Source of the DNA: Oscillospiraceae bacterium
Lineage (GTDB): Bacteria; Bacillota; Clostridia; Oscillospirales; QAMX01
DNA: 35,556 nt
Direction: 5' to 3'
NCBI GenBank assembly: GCA_015068345.1
Contig: SVKS01000011.1
Location: 1 to 35,556 of the forward strand
The number at the start of each line of letters is the position of its first letter. Position 1 is the stretch's first letter. Below, piece after piece: positions 6,135 to 14,924 of the stretch. The position numbers and the translations under genes were made by a program. Below the pieces are notes generated by a model. That model searched no databases. It had not been told where the DNA came from and worked only from the letters and a program-made list of their open reading frames with translations.

Positions 6135-8495
6135 ATGACATTACGAGATTTGAAAATCAATCAAAGTGCGGTTATCAATCAAGTAGGGGGCGAAGGCTCT
6201 CTGCGTCAGCACTTTTTGGATATGGGGTTGATTCCGGGAGCGGAAGTCACTCTGATTAAGTATGCACCCATGGGGGATCCTATGGAGATCCACATCCATG
6301 GCTACTCTCTGACGCTTCGTCTGGAGGATGCGGAAAAAGTGACCTTGTTTGCCGAAACGGTGGTTCCGGCAGACTTTGATAAAGAAGTCGTATCCCGTAA
6401 AGATCCGGAACGGGAGCATCCCGGGCTTGGAGAAAATGGCAAGTATCACGTGAAGGCGGATGAAAGTCCCTTGCCAAAGGGAACTACCCTGACCTTTGCC
6501 CTAGCCGGGAACCAGAACTGCGGGAAAACCACCCTGTTTAACCAGCTGACCGGATCCAATCAGCACGTTGGGAACTTCCCGGGGGTCACGGTGGACCGCA
6601 AAAGTGGTGCCATCCGGGGACACAGCGATACCGAGGTGACCGATCTGCCCGGTATTTACTCTCTTTCTCCTTATAGCAGAGAGGAATTGGTGTCCCGGGA
6701 ATTTATTCTGAGTGAAAAACCCACCGGGATCATCAACATTGTGGATGCCACCAACATTGAGCGCAATCTTTACCTGACCATGCAGCTCATTGAGCTGGGG
6801 ATCCCCATGGTGTTGGCCCTGAATATGATGGACGAAGTCCGTGGAAACGGCGGCTCCATTGATATCAACGCCATGGAAGAAATGTTTGGCGTACCGGTGG
6901 TCCCCATTTCGGCCTCCCGCAACGAAGGCGTAGCGGAGTTGGTGGACCACGCCATCCACGTGGCGCAGTTCCAGGAGCATCCCGGAAGACAGGATTTTTG
7001 CGACAGCTCAGACCATGGCGGGGCGGTGCATCGCTGTTTGCATGGTATTGTGCATCTGATCGATGACCACGCCAAGGCGGCGGGAATCCCCACCAAATTT
7101 GCCGCCAGCAAGCTGGTGGAAGGGGATGAACGGGTACTGGAAGCCCTTCAATTGACCGAAAATGAGAAGGAAATGCTGGAGCATATTATTACCCAAATGG
7201 AGGAAGAGCGGGGCCTGGACCGGGCGGCAGCCATTGCGGACATGCGTTTTGCCTTCATCCGCAAGGTTTGCGAAAAAACGGTACATAAGCCCCGGGAAAG
7301 CAAGGAACAGATTCGTTCGGGTCGCTTGGATAAGCTTTTGACAGGAAAATATACCGCTATTCCGGTCTTTATTTTGATCATGGCGGCGGTGTTCTGGCTT
7401 ACCTTTAACGTGATCGGTGCCTGGCTTCAAGGGTTACTGGAGGGGGGTATAGAATGGCTCACCGGCCTGGTGGATAACCTGCTGACCAACTGGGGAATCA
7501 ATGAGGCCCTGCACTCGTTGGTGATCGATGGGATCTTCAACGGGGTGGGAAGCGTATTGAGTTTTATCCCGGTGATCGTGACCCTCTTTTTCTTCCTCTC
7601 CCTTCTGGAGGACAGCGGCTACATGGCCCGTATCGCCTTTGTGATGGATAAGCTTTTGCGGAAAATCGGCCTTTCGGGGCGAAGCATTGTGCCCATGCTG
7701 ATCGGCTTTGGCTGCACTGTACCGGGGGTTATGGCCAGCCGGACCTTGCCTTCCGAGCGGGACCGCAAAATGACCATCCTTTTGACTCCGTTTATGAGCT
7801 GTACGGCAAAGCTTCCCATTTATGGGTTCTTTACCTCGGTATTTTTTCCAAAGTACAGCGGACTCATTATGGTGGGACTCTATTTCCTGGGTATCGTTGT
7901 TGCGGTACTGATCGCCCTGCTTTCAAAAAACACCATGTTTAAGGGGGAAGCAGTCCCCTTTGTTATGGAGCTTCCCAATTACCGTATGCCTGGGGTGAAA
8001 AACGTGGCCTTCCTTCTGTGGGACAAGGCCAAGGACTTCCTGCAACGGGCTTTTACGGTGATCTTCCTGGCTACGGTGGTGGTTTGGTTCCTACAAAGCT
8101 TTGACTTCCGGCTGAATTTGGTAGTGGATTCCAAAGATAGCATCCTGGCGGTGGTGGCCGGTGTTCTGGCCCCGGTGTTTAAACCCCTGGGATTTGGGGA
8201 TTGGCGGGTGTCCACCGCACTGATCGCCGGATTCATGGCGAAAGAAAGCGTGGTATCCACCCTTACCGTTCTGGTAGGGAGTGAAGCGGCCTTTGCCGGC
8301 ATTTTAACACCCCTTTCGGCACTGGCACTCCTGGTCTTCTGCTTGCTTTATACGCCCTGTGTGGCGGCAGTGGCCTCTATCAAGCGGGAAATGGGCGGAA
8401 AATGGGCTTTCGGCGTGGTGGTATTCCAGTGCGCGGTGGCGTGGCTCTGTGCGCTGCTGATCCGACTGATTGGTATGGTTCTTGGCGCTTCCTGA
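6135..8495 (+). CDS. feoB: FeoA-FeoB fusion, ferrous iron transporter
   Basis: This 786-residue protein imports Fe(II) across the cytoplasmic membrane. Residues 1-75 form a FeoA SH3-like domain (HFLDMGLIPGAEV). The FeoB G domain follows: G1 GNQNCGKTT at 125-133, NFPGVTVD as switch region, G3 DLPG at 170-173, G4 NMMD at 230-233, and G5 within PISASRNEGV. The polytopic part starts near residue 410 and includes the paired gate segments SLLEDSGYMARIAF and GFGCTVPGV. FeoA and FeoB are usually separate genes, and fusions are known in some Clostridia. The start follows AAGGAAG. No FeoC gene is present. It is a single-gene unit with its own promoter, operator-like palindrome and terminator. Confidence 0.95.
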   Translation: MTLRDLKINQSAVINQVGGEGSLRQHFLDMGLIPGAEVTLIKYAPMGDPMEIHIHGYSLTLRLEDAEKVTLFAETVVPADFDKEVVSRKDPEREHPGLGENGKYHVKADESPLPKGTTLTFALAGNQNCGKTTLFNQLTGSNQHVGNFPGVTVDRKSGAIRGHSDTEVTDLPGIYSLSPYSREELVSREFILSEKPTGIINIVDATNIERNLYLTMQLIELGIPMVLALNMMDEVRGNGGSIDINAMEEMFGVPVVPISASRNEGVAELVDHAIHVAQFQEHPGRQDFCDSSDHGGAVHRCLHGIVHLIDDHAKAAGIPTKFAASKLVEGDERVLEALQLTENEKEMLEHIITQMEEERGLDRAAAIADMRFAFIRKVCEKTVHKPRESKEQIRSGRLDKLLTGKYTAIPVFILIMAAVFWLTFNVIGAWLQGLLEGGIEWLTGLVDNLLTNWGINEALHSLVIDGIFNGVGSVLSFIPVIVTLFFFLSLLEDSGYMARIAFVMDKLLRKIGLSGRSIVPMLIGFGCTVPGVMASRTLPSERDRKMTILLTPFMSCTAKLPIYGFFTSVFFPKYSGLIMVGLYFLGIVVAVLIALLSKNTMFKGEAVPFVMELPNYRMPGVKNVAFLLWDKAKDFLQRAFTVIFLATVVVWFLQSFDFRLNLVVDSKDSILAVVAGVLAPVFKPLGFGDWRVSTALIAGFMAKESVVSTLTVLVGSEAAFAGILTPLSALALLVFCLLYTPCVAAVASIKREMGGKWAFGVVVFQCAVAWLCALLIRLIGMVLGAS

Positions 8496-8509: not shown

Positions 8510-8549
8510 CCCCTATGCGGATGTTGGCATCCGTGTAGGGGTATTTTTT
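8510..8549 (+). terminator. Terminator of feoAB
   Basis: A 14-bp stem runs CCCCTATGCGGATG / CATCCGTGTAGGGG (with two G-T pairs) around a TTGG loop. It is followed by TATTTTTT. Confidence 0.9.
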
Positions 8550-8559
8550 ACGGATCATA

Positions 8560-8588
8560 TTGACGGAAGAATGGCTTTGTGCTAAAAT
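8560..8588 (+). promoter_or_regulatory. Promoter of the G3E GTPase pair
   Basis: TTGACG (8560-8565) and TAAAAT (8583-8588) are separated by 17 bp. Confidence 0.7.
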
Positions 8589-8644
8589 AAAGAAAATACG
8601 AATGTGTTGGAATCTATGCTTTTTCATATTAAGGAGGATATAAA

Positions 8645-9856
8645 ATGACGAAAATCAATGTAATCTCCGGATTTTTGGGTGCGGGGAAGACTACCTTTAT
8701 CAAACGGTTGATCGGTGAAGTATTTCAGGGCGAAAAGCTGGTCCTGATTGAAAATGAGTTTGGCGAAATTGGCGTAGACGGCGGCTTTCTGCAGGATGCA
8801 GGGATCCAAATCACCGAAATGATTTCCGGTTGTATTTGCTGCAGCCTGGTGGGGGACTTCACCAAGGCGTTGGAGGAGACCATCAAAACCTACACTCCCG
8901 ACCGGATCCTGATCGAACCCTCGGGTGTGGGAAAGCTTTCCGACGTGATTGCGGCGGTGGAACGCATTGGCGATGGGGTCAGCGTGGATACCTGCATCAC
9001 CGTGGTGGATGGCACCAAGTGTAAGCTCTATCGCAGAAACTTTGCTGAGTTCTACGTGGATCAAATCCAGCACGCAAATTGTATTTTGATGACCCGCACC
9101 GATAAGGCCAGCGAAGCTAAAATCGAGGAAGCGGTTAAGATTATCCGGGAGATCAATGGGGAGGCAAACATCATTACCACCCATCTGTCCCTTCTGAGCA
9201 AGGAACAGATCGTGGAAGCCTTCCAGGAGAACACCATGGAAGCTACCCTTCTGGAAGAAACGAAAAAAGCCCATGCTCATCATCATGATCATGAGGAAGA
9301 GTGCGAATGCGGCTGCCATGAGCATCATCACGAGCACCACCATCATGACCATGAGGAAGAGTGCGAATGCGGTTGCCACGAGCATCATCACGAGCATCAC
9401 CATCATGACCACGATGAAGAATGCGAATGCGGTTGCCACAAGCATCATCACGAGCATCACCATCATGACCACGATGAAGAATGCGAATGCGGTTGCCATG
9501 AGCATCATCACCATCATCATGACCATGACGAGGAATGCACTTGCGGTTGTCATGACCACCATCACCACCATCACCATGCGGACGAAGCATTCACTTCCTG
9601 GGGTTTCGAAACCGCCAGAAAATATACCGAAGAAGAGATCAAGCAGATACTTACTGCCTTGGATGGGGAAGAATACGGTTCTGTTTTACGTGCCAAAGGT
9701 ATGGTGGACGGGGGGGATCATTGGATCTACTTCGACTACGTACCCGGTGAACCGGAAGTACGTACCGGTGCTGCCTGCATTATTGGCAAAATCTGCGTAA
9801 TCGGTGCCGAACTGCACGAGGAAAAGCTTGCAGAGCTGTTTGGCAAAGCAAACTGA
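8645..9856 (+). CDS. G3E-family (CobW-type) GTPase with Cys/His metal-binding repeats
   Basis: This 403-residue protein belongs to the G3E GTPases, which load metal into proteins or act as metallochaperones (CobW, YjiA, ZNG1). The Walker A motif GFLGAGKTT is at residues 9-17. The family metal motif GCICC gives Cys63, Cys65 and Cys66. Residues about 210-312 are an insert of five Cys/His units with cores at Cys220/222/224, 240/242/244, 260/262/264, 280/282/284 and 298/300/302, separated by His runs. The CobW C-terminal domain follows to the end. The start has a consensus AAGGAGG. It is first in an operon with another G3E protein and lies directly after feoAB, which suggests Zn, Fe, Ni or Co handling. 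The metal is not determinable here. Confidence 0.93.
   Translation: MTKINVISGFLGAGKTTFIKRLIGEVFQGEKLVLIENEFGEIGVDGGFLQDAGIQITEMISGCICCSLVGDFTKALEETIKTYTPDRILIEPSGVGKLSDVIAAVERIGDGVSVDTCITVVDGTKCKLYRRNFAEFYVDQIQHANCILMTRTDKASEAKIEEAVKIIREINGEANIITTHLSLLSKEQIVEAFQENTMEATLLEETKKAHAHHHDHEEECECGCHEHHHEHHHHDHEEECECGCHEHHHEHHHHDHDEECECGCHKHHHEHHHHDHDEECECGCHEHHHHHHDHDEECTCGCHDHHHHHHHADEAFTSWGFETARKYTEEEIKQILTALDGEEYGSVLRAKGMVDGGDHWIYFDYVPGEPEVRTGAACIIGKICVIGAELHEEKLAELFGKAN
9272..9582 (+). repeat. In-frame 60-bp tandem repeat encoding a Cys/His-rich metal-binding tract
   Basis: The segment GAGTGCGAATGCGG and its variants recur at 9299, 9359, 9419 and 9479, a period of exactly 60 bp (20 codons). A fifth, shorter unit follows after 54 bp. 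Each unit encodes a variant of EECECGCHEHHHEHHHHDH. Small synonymous differences between copies indicate older duplications under coding constraint. Confidence 0.95.
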
Positions 9857-9874: not shown

Positions 9875-10819
9875 ATGCGAGAAGAAAGAAAAACTCCGGT
9901 ATTTGTAATCAACGGCTTTTTGGAGAGCGGAAAGACCACCTTTATTCGGGATGCCATCGTGCGGGACCCCGAGATGGAAGCCGAGCGAGTGGTAATTCTA
10001 TGCTGTGAGGAAGGCGAAGTCGAAATGGATTCCCTTCCGGATAACGTACACGTGCTGGTGGTGGAGGAAAAGGAAGACTTCACAAGTGAGCTGCTGGCCG
10101 ATATCGAGAGAAAATATCACCCCACTTATATGATCATCGAATACAACGGCGTGTGGGGGATGAAAACCCTTTATGATACGGAGATCCCCAATACATGGCG
10201 TTATTCGGCCCAATTTACCATCATCAATGCCGAGACCTTCGAAATGTATTTTGAGAATATGAAGGGTGTATTTGCCGATATGTTACGCATGTCGGCACGG
10301 GTCTTCATGAATCGTTGCAATCGGGGTGATAACTTCAAGTATTTCAAGGATAGCATCAAATCCTGCTGCCCCCATGCGGAAATCATCTACATGAATGACG
10401 AGGAAGGCTTCCTGGATATTATGTTGGAAGAGGACCTGCCCTATGATATCCACGCCGACGTCGTTGCAATCGAACCGGATGACTATATGACCTGGTATAT
10501 CGATATGCAGGATGAACCCGACCGTTACGAGGGAAAAGTGGTGGAATTTGAAGCCCAGGCGGCACATCCGGAATATTTCCGGGAGGATTTCTTCCTGGCA
10601 GGGAATATGGTTATGACCTGCTGCGAGGATGATATGCAGTTTTTGGGTTTTGTGTGCCAGTATGATAAGGCACTGCTTTTGAAAGAAGACAGGCGCATGA
10701 AGGTGCGGGCTAAGGTTCATTACGAGTTTGCACCGGAATACGAGATGGAAGGTCCGGTTTTGTATGTGGAGAAAACCACCACGGTGCAGGGCCTGGATAA
10801 AAAGAGAAAGAAGAAGTAA
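9875..10819 (+). CDS. G3E-type GTPase fused to a TIGR03943/DUF1980-like C-terminal domain
   Basis: This is a 314-residue protein. Walker A GFLESGKTT is at residues 14-22. The CxCC metal motif of CobW proteins is missing; Cys43-Cys44 (LCCEEGEVEM) sit at another place. After about residue 200 the segments DEPDRYEGKVVEFEAQ, NMVMTCCEDD (Cys249-Cys250) and GFVCQYDKA (Cys261) strongly recall the C-terminal half of TIGR03943/DUF1980 (YcgQ-type) proteins. Those are normally encoded beside a permease in Firmicutes. The tail is basic (KKRKKK). The gene begins 18 bp after the other G3E gene, with a modest AAAGG site, so they form one operon. A role in metal delivery is inferred; domain assignment is by memory. 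Confidence 0.8.
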   Translation: MREERKTPVFVINGFLESGKTTFIRDAIVRDPEMEAERVVILCCEEGEVEMDSLPDNVHVLVVEEKEDFTSELLADIERKYHPTYMIIEYNGVWGMKTLYDTEIPNTWRYSAQFTIINAETFEMYFENMKGVFADMLRMSARVFMNRCNRGDNFKYFKDSIKSCCPHAEIIYMNDEEGFLDIMLEEDLPYDIHADVVAIEPDDYMTWYIDMQDEPDRYEGKVVEFEAQAAHPEYFREDFFLAGNMVMTCCEDDMQFLGFVCQYDKALLLKEDRRMKVRAKVHYEFAPEYEMEGPVLYVEKTTTVQGLDKKRKKK

Positions 10820-11949: not shown

Positions 11950-12807
11950 CTATTGGACAAAAAGCGTGCGAAAGGCGGTCATTTCCTCGTCTGTGGGAAC
12001 CCGATAAGTGGGAGCAGCTTGACCTAGGGCGGCGTATTTGTGTTCCCCGAGCCGGTGGTAGGGGAGAAGTTCCGTCCCGGAAAGACCCAGAGAAGCCAGA
12101 AAAGTGGCGATTCTTCCCATTTCAGCAGGATCAGCATTGAATCCGGGGATCACCGGAACGCGTATCAGAATATCTCCCGGAAAACCCTTTGAAAGCCTGG
12201 TCAGATTTTCCAGGATCTGATTGTTTTCCACCCCGGTCCCCGAGCGGTGCAATTCCCCCGAAAAGGCCTTGATGTCGTAGAGAAAGAGGTCGGTATAGGG
12301 CATGACCTGTTCGAAGTGGGAAAAAGGCACATTTCCTGCGGTATCCACAGCGGTGTGGATACCCGAAGATCGGCAGGCTGCCAAGATTTCCGCAAGGAAA
12401 TCGGGATATAACATACACTCTCCCCCGGAAAAGGTAACTCCGCCGCCGGAATTATCATAAAATGCTTTATCCTTGACGATTTCACGAAGCATCTCGTCCA
12501 TGGTATATTCCTTACCGCAGATCTCTCTTGCATCGTGTGGGCAATACATCGTGCATTTGCCGCAAAGATCGCATGTTTCAAGTGCGTTGGGGCACTTTTC
12601 TTTGCATTTACCGCAACCGGTACACTTGTTTTTGTAAAACAGCATTTGCGGAGCCGCACATTGACTTTCGGGATTGTGACACCACGCACAGTGCAGATTA
12701 CACCCCTTGAAAAACACCGTGGTGCGAATCCCGGGCCCGTCTACATAGGAATTTCGCTGAATATCAAAAACGGTTGCGGTCAGTATTTCAGAGTGTTGCA
12801 TTGTCAT
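11950..12807 (-). CDS. Glycyl-radical enzyme activating enzyme (radical SAM)
   Basis: This 285-residue enzyme uses S-adenosylmethionine and a 4Fe-4S cluster to install the glycyl radical on a partner enzyme. The radical-SAM motif CNLHCAWC gives Cys36, Cys40 and Cys43. Next come two ferredoxin-type clusters, CTGCGKCKEKCP (Cys62/65/68/72) and CDLCGKCTMYCP (Cys79/82/85/89). These are found in activators of dehydratase-type GREs but not in classical pyruvate formate-lyase activase. The start ATG overlaps the stop of the upstream GRE (ATGA) and follows GGAG, so the two are translationally coupled. It therefore activates the GRE at 12804-14924. Confidence 0.93.
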   Translation of the reverse strand: MTMQHSEILTATVFDIQRNSYVDGPGIRTTVFFKGCNLHCAWCHNPESQCAAPQMLFYKNKCTGCGKCKEKCPNALETCDLCGKCTMYCPHDAREICGKEYTMDEMLREIVKDKAFYDNSGGGVTFSGGECMLYPDFLAEILAACRSSGIHTAVDTAGNVPFSHFEQVMPYTDLFLYDIKAFSGELHRSGTGVENNQILENLTRLSKGFPGDILIRVPVIPGFNADPAEMGRIATFLASLGLSGTELLPYHRLGEHKYAALGQAAPTYRVPTDEEMTAFRTLFVQ

Positions 12808-14924
12808 TTTTGCTCCGTTCTTGCTATAATATCGTTCTGAATGGCGTCATTCAGTTTGACAAAATAGTCCGAAAATCCCGTAACACGCACACGAAGATGC
12901 TTGTAGTCATCGGGAGTTTCCTTAGCACACAGCAGATCCTTCTTTGAAACGTAGGTGAGTTGAAAATGTACACCGCCATTTTGGAAGTAGGTCAGAAGAA
13001 GATCAACCGTCTTCTCAAAATTGGCATCGTTTTTGATGAGCTGTTCATCAATGGTAATATTCGTAACCGTGGAGCCGCATCCGATCCCGTTGGGATCGAC
13101 CTTTGCGATCGCATTCAGCAGGGCAGATAATCCCTCGCGGTCGCGTCCCTCGCTCTGTCCCAGCCCGAATTTGAGCATATCTCCATTATATCTGCCGTCC
13201 GGCGTTGCCCTGGTATGATTCCCAAACCATTTATGATGAATGTTATATCCGAGCAGATCACCAATGAGCCAATGATAACCGTACAGATTGGTTTTATCCT
13301 TCAAAAACTCATACAATTCCCGATAGAGCCTCTGAGCTACACAGTTGGATGTGTCGTCATCGTTTCCAAAGAATTTTCCTCGCTTGAGGATCAGGGTATG
13401 CAGATCCTCGTAACCCCGCCAATCCGCATGCAATGCCGTGATAAGCTCGGACATTGTAAACATCTTTTCATCAAAAACAAATTGCTTGACGACGCAGAGG
13501 GAATCTATCACATTGGTGATTCCAAGACACATCGGAGATGCGATTGCCGTATTTCCTCCGCCCTGGGTCAAGGAGGTGGCGTTCTCTATACAATCGTTAA
13601 ACACCAGGCTGGAGACGTAATTGATATCCTGCGCTCTTTGCTTGTTGTAAAAGTTATCGTATTCGTACCCGCGTTCCAGATCGGAGAACAGCTCTTTTTT
13701 GAACACGTCGAAAAACGCATCAAAGCTTTCGGCTTTTTCAATTAAATTTGCCTTTTCGTGAAAGAGTCTTTCCGTGGAACGCAGGAAATTGATTTTGGAG
13801 TTGCTTCCGATAATAGCGCCAAGGAAGGCGGGCTCGTTGCATCCGACGGTGGTATAGCCAACCGCCCTCTCAAAGGGAATATGGCAGATCTCAGTATATG
13901 CCATGATGCGTTTTTCATCGTTTTGAAATGCAATTCGCTTGTGAGGGTCGTGTCGCTCGCAATCAAGCACAAAACGGAACACCTCGCGGGGCGTTTTCTT
14001 CGTCCATCGCAGGGTTACCTGAGGAATATAGGTGGGCAACTCGATCATACTTTCAACGATCAGGCGCGAAAGTTCGGTAAACCCGTCCTCGCCGCTTGGC
14101 AAGTAGCCGCCGATACAAAAATGGGATTCGCCTCCGCGTGTAAAATTGTTAGATTGGACAGGCGTTGCCGCTTGGAGCATCAGGAAAAGTTCCTGTAAAT
14201 ATTCGGCGGCTTCTTCCCTGGTCAGCGTGCCGTTTTCAATGTCTTTTTTGTAAAACGGATAGAGATATCTATCAAGCGTTCCCACGCTGTCGGGATCGGC
14301 AGAGAAGCAAAGGTAGATACACAAAACCGCCTCATAAAAACTCTCGGGCGCTTTTTCGGGAACACGGAGAAGCGTCTTGGAAAGCTTTTGGAGATTATTT
14401 CTATATTCCTCGTTTGAGACGGTCAGAGATAATGCCGCCGCGCGCCGGGAGCATTTGTGTGCCCATCCGATCAGGGCATCTGCCACACGCTTAAGCGCGA
14501 GCAAAAACTCTGTTTGCTCGGATTTGGTATGATTTCTTAAGGATTCATCAATATCTTCGATGATTCCGCAAATCCCCCGATTCAGTATCTTTGTATAGTC
14601 AGCGGTGGCGTGTTGCCACTCCATCGTAGAGAGGTTGTCGATCGGTTTGAGATAAAAAAGGTGGAAAGCCTCCTGTGTTGCTTTGTGCCCGCCGCGACGG
14701 AATGCATCACCCACAATACTTCCATCAAAATTGAAAAATCCGGTCAAAACCGAATATTCGGTCAGCTTGGGCTCTTGATTTAAAATATATTCGCAAATGC
14801 GCTTGGATTCCATTTGTTGTCTGGGTAATAGCAGATCCGCTTCATCGTATACCGTTTTCACGGTATCGGCATACATTTTCCCCTGCAGGGTCAGCTCGGT
14901 CAGTCTTTGAATACGTTCGGTCAT
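12804..14924 (-). CDS. Glycyl radical enzyme, substrate unknown (PFL-like/dehydratase type)
   Basis: This is a 706-residue GRE. The active-site cysteine is Cys362 in VGCNEP; the Cys-x-Glu arrangement is characteristic of GRE eliminases (diol dehydratase, CutC, HypD types), whereas pyruvate formate-lyase has adjacent cysteines. The radical site is Gly683 in RVTGFSDYF, followed by QNDIIART, the standard C-terminal signature. At 706 residues it is shorter than most characterised members (about 780-850). I cannot assign the substrate. The start follows GGAGGT. It is first in an operon with its activase and is divergent from an AraC-type regulator. Codon use seems less GCC/ACC-biased than the neighbours, possibly indicating transfer. 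Confidence 0.9.
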   Translation of the reverse strand: MTERIQRLTELTLQGKMYADTVKTVYDEADLLLPRQQMESKRICEYILNQEPKLTEYSVLTGFFNFDGSIVGDAFRRGGHKATQEAFHLFYLKPIDNLSTMEWQHATADYTKILNRGICGIIEDIDESLRNHTKSEQTEFLLALKRVADALIGWAHKCSRRAAALSLTVSNEEYRNNLQKLSKTLLRVPEKAPESFYEAVLCIYLCFSADPDSVGTLDRYLYPFYKKDIENGTLTREEAAEYLQELFLMLQAATPVQSNNFTRGGESHFCIGGYLPSGEDGFTELSRLIVESMIELPTYIPQVTLRWTKKTPREVFRFVLDCERHDPHKRIAFQNDEKRIMAYTEICHIPFERAVGYTTVGCNEPAFLGAIIGSNSKINFLRSTERLFHEKANLIEKAESFDAFFDVFKKELFSDLERGYEYDNFYNKQRAQDINYVSSLVFNDCIENATSLTQGGGNTAIASPMCLGITNVIDSLCVVKQFVFDEKMFTMSELITALHADWRGYEDLHTLILKRGKFFGNDDDTSNCVAQRLYRELYEFLKDKTNLYGYHWLIGDLLGYNIHHKWFGNHTRATPDGRYNGDMLKFGLGQSEGRDREGLSALLNAIAKVDPNGIGCGSTVTNITIDEQLIKNDANFEKTVDLLLTYFQNGGVHFQLTYVSKKDLLCAKETPDDYKHLRVRVTGFSDYFVKLNDAIQNDIIARTEQK

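Follow-up and report, generated by a model that had tools for sequence, protein, structure and literature searches.

In a 35,556-nucleotide stretch of DNA from an Oscillospiraceae bacterium (contig SVKS01000011.1; hereafter, the window), we find two adjoining genes, here called A and B (Table 1), that on balance probably encode a soluble two-protein module for zinc buffering and delivery, related to a membrane system with an ArsP_1 permease. In the mechanism that we propose, the disordered Cys/His/acidic tail of A would gather several Zn(II) ions into a local store open to exchange, from which zinc would pass to the GCICC site in the GTPase domain of A; nucleotide binding and hydrolysis would power its hand-over from A to B, in which the OB-like DUF1980_C domain that bears the CCxxD motif would be the acceptor or relay. 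The roles of the tail as a zinc reservoir for A and of B as acceptor or relay are proposed because of the COG0523 literature and the operon context of relatives. Of the roles originally suggested for the insert, a metal store that supplies the GTPase is the one we favor. The pair may be derived from a membrane system located in znuABC/Zur-type operons and composed of A, an ArsP_1 permease with a GTPase domain, and DUF1980, or the two may have a common ancestor; the large tail is present where the permease is missing.

Table 1. Features of the A-B locus (window coordinates)
Feature	Position	Strand	Description	Basis
Terminator-like hairpin between feoAB and A	8510..8541	+	14 bp stem plus T run	
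Promoter-like site upstream of A	8560..8588	+	TTGACG-17-TAAAAT; tentative, site number in region not clearly above chance	Consensus scan
ORF A	8645..9856	+	403 aa, COG0523/CobW-type G3E GTPase with Cys/His tail	Pfam cobW, CobW_C
CICC of GCICC (C63, C65, C66) in A	8831..8842	+	Where metal is expected to bind in this family (GTPase domain)	Role: PMC7895991
Disordered Cys/His/acidic insert, residues 210-311 of A	9272..9577	+		pLDDT, composition
CECGCH unit 1	9302..9319	+		
CECGCH unit 2	9362..9379	+		
CECGCH unit 3	9422..9439	+		
CECGCH unit 4	9482..9499	+		
CTCGCH unit 5	9536..9553	+	After 54-bp step	
ORF B	9875..10819	+	314 aa; fusion of a degenerate G3E domain with DUF1980_C	PF21537, PF02492, CCxxD

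Pfam profile searches bear out the original prediction of a G3E GTPase: PF02492 matches A at 2.5e-39 (135.2 bits; curated cut-off, 20.7), and CobW_C is found at 5e-5 (23.5 bits; cut-off, 22). Among 84 A proteins compared, the core motifs GFLGAGKT, GCICC, and EPSGVGKLSD are conserved, and within GCICC (residues 62–66) G62, C63, C65, and C66 are invariant; in COG0523 proteins, GCxCC is where metal binds, and the binding depends on nucleotide (PMC7895991). The guanine specificity of A is not certain because the position of the specificity motif (NKxD or [ST]KxD) reads TRTD, and is LSRT-like in the consensus of relatives. A belongs to a separate COG0523 subfamily, since it scores far under the NCBIfam cut-offs for the CobW equivalog (TIGR02475; 86 bits, cut-off 332), PRK11537, and ZigA; it is also far under that for the HypB equivalog (TIGR00073; 23.6 bits, 3e-5, cut-off 121). 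The sole solved relative found by a PDB sequence search with A was YjiA.

Between its GTPase and CobW_C domains, A carries a 102-residue insert in which 15 positions are Cys, 48 are His, and 31 are Asp/Glu, in agreement with the 15 cysteines and many histidines originally predicted, and AlphaFold gives a pLDDT below 50 over residues 210–314. The five predicted Cys-rich units are real: five CxCGCH units lie in frame, with their first Cys at residues 220, 240, 260, 280, and 298, and CxCGC occurs on average 0.013 times (maximum, 2) in 20,000 shuffles of the insert. The exact 60-bp period ascribed to them holds for the first three steps of 20 residues, with 18 residues in the last, and the suggested ending in either Cys or His is incorrect, as all five units read CxCGC followed by His, with no CxCGH. 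The idea that the array grew by tandem duplication is upheld by unit comparison and by TRF (period 60, 5.1 copies, 86% matches, a count that may be off because MAG assemblies can miscount repeats). Third codon positions hold 31 of the 43 base differences among units 1–4, and the codon differences are 23 synonymous versus 13 nonsynonymous, a pattern as expected if the encoded peptide were kept by selection, with the limited power that young duplicates provide. A 317-aa ORF that runs antisense through the repeat (8624–9577, minus strand) seems to be a mere consequence of the way His and Cys codons are arranged.

A scan with one genome per species yielded 80 loci and, once same-genus loci were added, 84 A proteins; two of the six search peptides of the 80-locus scan were taken from the tail, and the set is therefore biased toward tails. 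Tandem arrays are detected by TRF at the tail in 80 of the 84 genes, with periods from 6 to 141 bp, every one divisible by 3, and the repeat unit and copy number differ by lineage while the core of A is strongly conserved. Mean unit identity is 0.76 within a protein versus 0.49 between proteins (33 proteins with at least three Cys units), which implies that the arrays were re-made or homogenised in each lineage. Repeat variation without regard to Cys position is seen between lineages, where the Cys motif changes (CxCH, CxCG, and CC occur beside the Cys triplet), whereas the units of any one protein are homogeneous. The Cys triplet, originally taken to define the tail, is present here but is too narrow a description, since relatives with B carry 0–18 Cys but at least 20 His. 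Judged from these alignments, His is constant in the tail and Cys is not, the triplet is one of several solutions, and the tail as a whole is a rapidly evolving segment. Even within the window clade (the window and loci L004, L025, L089, and L090; tree support 100/100), unit forms include CxCGCH, CDCH, and CGCH. The repeat count is uncertain in the genome of the closest relative, where an assembly break (L004 and L007) falls within the Cys/His array. Separately, the A proteins of same-genus loci L005 and L006 are 56–57% identical to that of the window, have a low-Cys tail, and branch far from it in the tree, a pattern suggestive of replacement or transfer of the gene within the genus. The prevalence and fast turnover of the arrays could be read as a sign that the tail merely results from replication slippage in a linker that tolerates it and is for the most part neutral, but this is very improbable given the in-frame periods, the concentration of unit differences at third codon positions, and a composition that is always His/acidic, with at least 20 His in 32 of 32 permease-less proteins.

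The original prediction dealt with the repeat in A and did not mention gene B, which begins after a gap of 18 bp and proves to be an invariant partner. Its DUF1980_C domain is well supported (PF21537, 6.4e-15, 55.5 bits; cut-off, 25.9), and its match to PF02492 is weak (2.2e-9, 37.6 bits), with the P-loop kept and GCxCC absent; the CCxxD motif (C249, C250, D253) is 99% conserved among relatives. In a fold search with the predicted model of B (pLDDT 91.7), residues 4–186 match HypB and YjiA with Z of 13–14.6, and the C-terminal domain gives weak OB-type matches only, so that we tentatively describe the latter as OB-like. Of the 83 related loci, 81 have A and B adjoining in the same orientation, whichever gene comes first; both loci without B beside A (L004 and L029) are cut by contig ends, and the B gene of the L004 genome is found in L007. 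No other conserved neighbor of the pair was noticed among the related loci: pyrBI, pth, SpoU, and ABC_trans_CmpB, for example, were rejected as being present in few loci only, and one apparent neighbor cluster was rejected as an antisense artefact of ORF B. No report of DUF1980 together with a GTPase was found in the open-access literature.

More distant A proteins were collected from 196 genomes of the class, with a query lacking the tail, and from 398 genomes of the phylum, with a tail-less relative as query. In both samples, distant A proteins of Bacillota adjoin a GTPase-like domain that either forms one protein with an ArsP_1 permease (PF03773) or is encoded beside it, together with a DUF1980 protein with about three predicted transmembrane segments; CCxxD is present in 14 of the 14 membrane-type DUF1980_C domains examined, and A itself has a short tail or none. 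Near these loci we find znuA/znuC/znuB as a full set or in part (L126, L128, L132, L147, and L153), ZnuA (L156), and, directly beside them, a Fur-family gene (L122, L123, and L144). The Zur protein of B. anthracis binds ahead of the BAS1632 operon, which encodes an ArsP_1 permease (PMC6336718). In one permease-type A of 451 aa (L139:4601-5953), the linker is long, rich in Ala and Ser, and free of His and Cys, and the GTPase domain contains an extra insert.

No permease is found near A-B at any of the 84 loci, and the window genome, which holds one ZnuA and two Fur-family genes, has no match to ArsP_1 (PF03773). In the soluble pair, B seems to have taken the place of the membrane transporter encoded in the relatives. 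In a comparison of 32 permease-less with 14 permease-type A proteins, all retrieved by queries without the insert, the tail holds 20–69 versus 1–19 His (Mann-Whitney p = 9e-8, kinship ignored) and 0–18 versus 0–5 Cys (p = 1e-5, kinship likewise ignored). Within this comparison, long tails are confined to the permease-less pair; a few permease-type proteins carry a modest His/Cys tail at the upper end of their range, and solo COG0523 proteins mostly have few tail His or Cys. On the tree, the permease-less grouping takes two changes versus 22 with shuffled labels, the intruders (L152/L156 and L155) all being on long branches, and permease loss and tail gain may reflect a shared single ancestry rather than a causal link. 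With its many Cys and His in a disordered segment and its free unit turnover between lineages, as expected of low specificity, the tail might instead be a detoxifying or general metallothionein-like sink for several soft metals that makes no specific delivery to B. It would work like bacterial metallothioneins as a multi-metal Cys/His-rich disordered segment, but it is not a separate small protein, and we claim no homology. We consider a sink unlikely, as the tail is tethered to a highly conserved GTPase invariably paired with B, and as the permease-type relatives occur in zinc-uptake, not efflux, operons.

It is this operon context of the relatives that points to zinc as the probable metal of the soluble pair. 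No znuABC is found near the 84 permease-less loci, only one of which (L013) has a Fur-family gene, and no enrichment of Zur or Fur boxes is seen in the 84 regions upstream of A, where the boxes used were Bacillus-type and may not be the operator of Clostridia. Zinc is not the sole metal bound by thiol-rich sites, which take Cu(I), Cd, Ni, and Co as well; the His-rich G3E GTPases HypB and UreG insert nickel for hydrogenase and urease, and CobW handles cobalt. The nearest metal gene in the window is feoAB, an Fe(II) importer in which FeoA and FeoB are fused as one 786-aa protein (6135–8495) that ends 150 bp upstream of A; FeoB is also upstream in same-genus L004 and, distantly, in Hungatella L077. 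A module that serves iron, nickel, or cobalt is nonetheless quite unlikely in our estimate: FeoB is absent from the other related loci examined, among them sister locus L025, for which 5 kb of upstream sequence was covered; znuABC/Fur is found clustered with the permease-type relatives; and no metal riboswitch lies near A in the window or in 13 loci scanned (L144 has cobalamin riboswitches further away). The terminator-like hairpin that parts feoAB from A suggests that A-B does not merely belong to the feoAB transcript, and from this and the narrow distribution of upstream FeoB we rejected membership of A in the feoAB operon. Further along the window (11950–14924, minus strand), two genes recognized from their translations only lie together; one encodes a 706-aa protein that resembles glycyl radical enzymes, the other a probable radical SAM activase of 285 aa.

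The proposed zinc module has several counterparts among known systems. About 40% of COG0523 proteins contain His stretches, which have been linked to metallochaperone activity (PMC2770081), and calculations assign a preference for Zn to the Mg-GTP forms of YeiR and YjiA (PMC7895991). YjiA (E. coli; PDB 1nij/4ixm), ZigA, YciC/ZagA, and CobW share with A a GTPase domain with GCxCC as well as CobW_C, and A differs from all of them in its separate subfamily, its long Cys/His tandem tail, and its obligate partner B. HypB and UreG with His-rich extensions are likewise G3E GTPases with metal-buffering His stretches, but they act in nickel insertion. The ArsP_1 plus DUF1980 systems (YcgR/YcgQ-type, TIGR03943) have a COG0523 GTPase, a second G3E-like domain, and DUF1980_C with CCxxD in common with A-B, whereas the window pair has no permease and no transmembrane segments (lost or lacking), and in it DUF1980_C and the GTPase-like domain are joined directly in one protein. 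According to the accessible part of its description, CobW2 of Cupriavidus metallidurans, which belongs to a different phylum, is a zinc-storage COG0523 GTPase with about 6–7 Zn bound and, like A, a large internal His-rich region predicted to be disordered; tandem CxCGCH units and a fused DUF1980_C partner go unmentioned for it there (PMC11340326). Metal-induced ordering, suggested for C. metallidurans CobW2 and CobW3 (PMC11340326), would also suit a tail that is mainly a sensor or regulatory arm, in which metal loading folds the tail and alters GTPase activity or A-B contact and storage is secondary, as would the position of the tail between the GTPase and CobW_C domains and its predicted disorder in the apo state; a defined site would be expected of such an arm, yet motif, count, and period vary widely, and we think it improbable.

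His-rich zinc-storing COG0523 proteins are already known; a zinc-allocation module formed by a COG0523 GTPase and a dedicated pseudo-GTPase/DUF1980_C acceptor is possibly, although we say so with some doubt, undescribed so far. Only tentatively do we extend the reading to a widespread soluble zinc-allocation module of gut Clostridia, in which a GTPase with a rapidly evolving tandem Cys/His reservoir would work with a pseudo-GTPase/DUF1980_C acceptor and the reservoir would have replaced the supply from a lost ArsP_1 permease. The presumed role of COG0523 GTPases is the allocation of scarce zinc, and few of their partners are known; the invariant partner B in gut Lachnospiraceae and Oscillospiraceae would offer a handle on the destination of the metal and on the function of DUF1980_C, and the swap between permease and storage tail, combined with fast unit turnover in one clade, would provide a natural series from which to learn how many ligands, and which, such a store needs.
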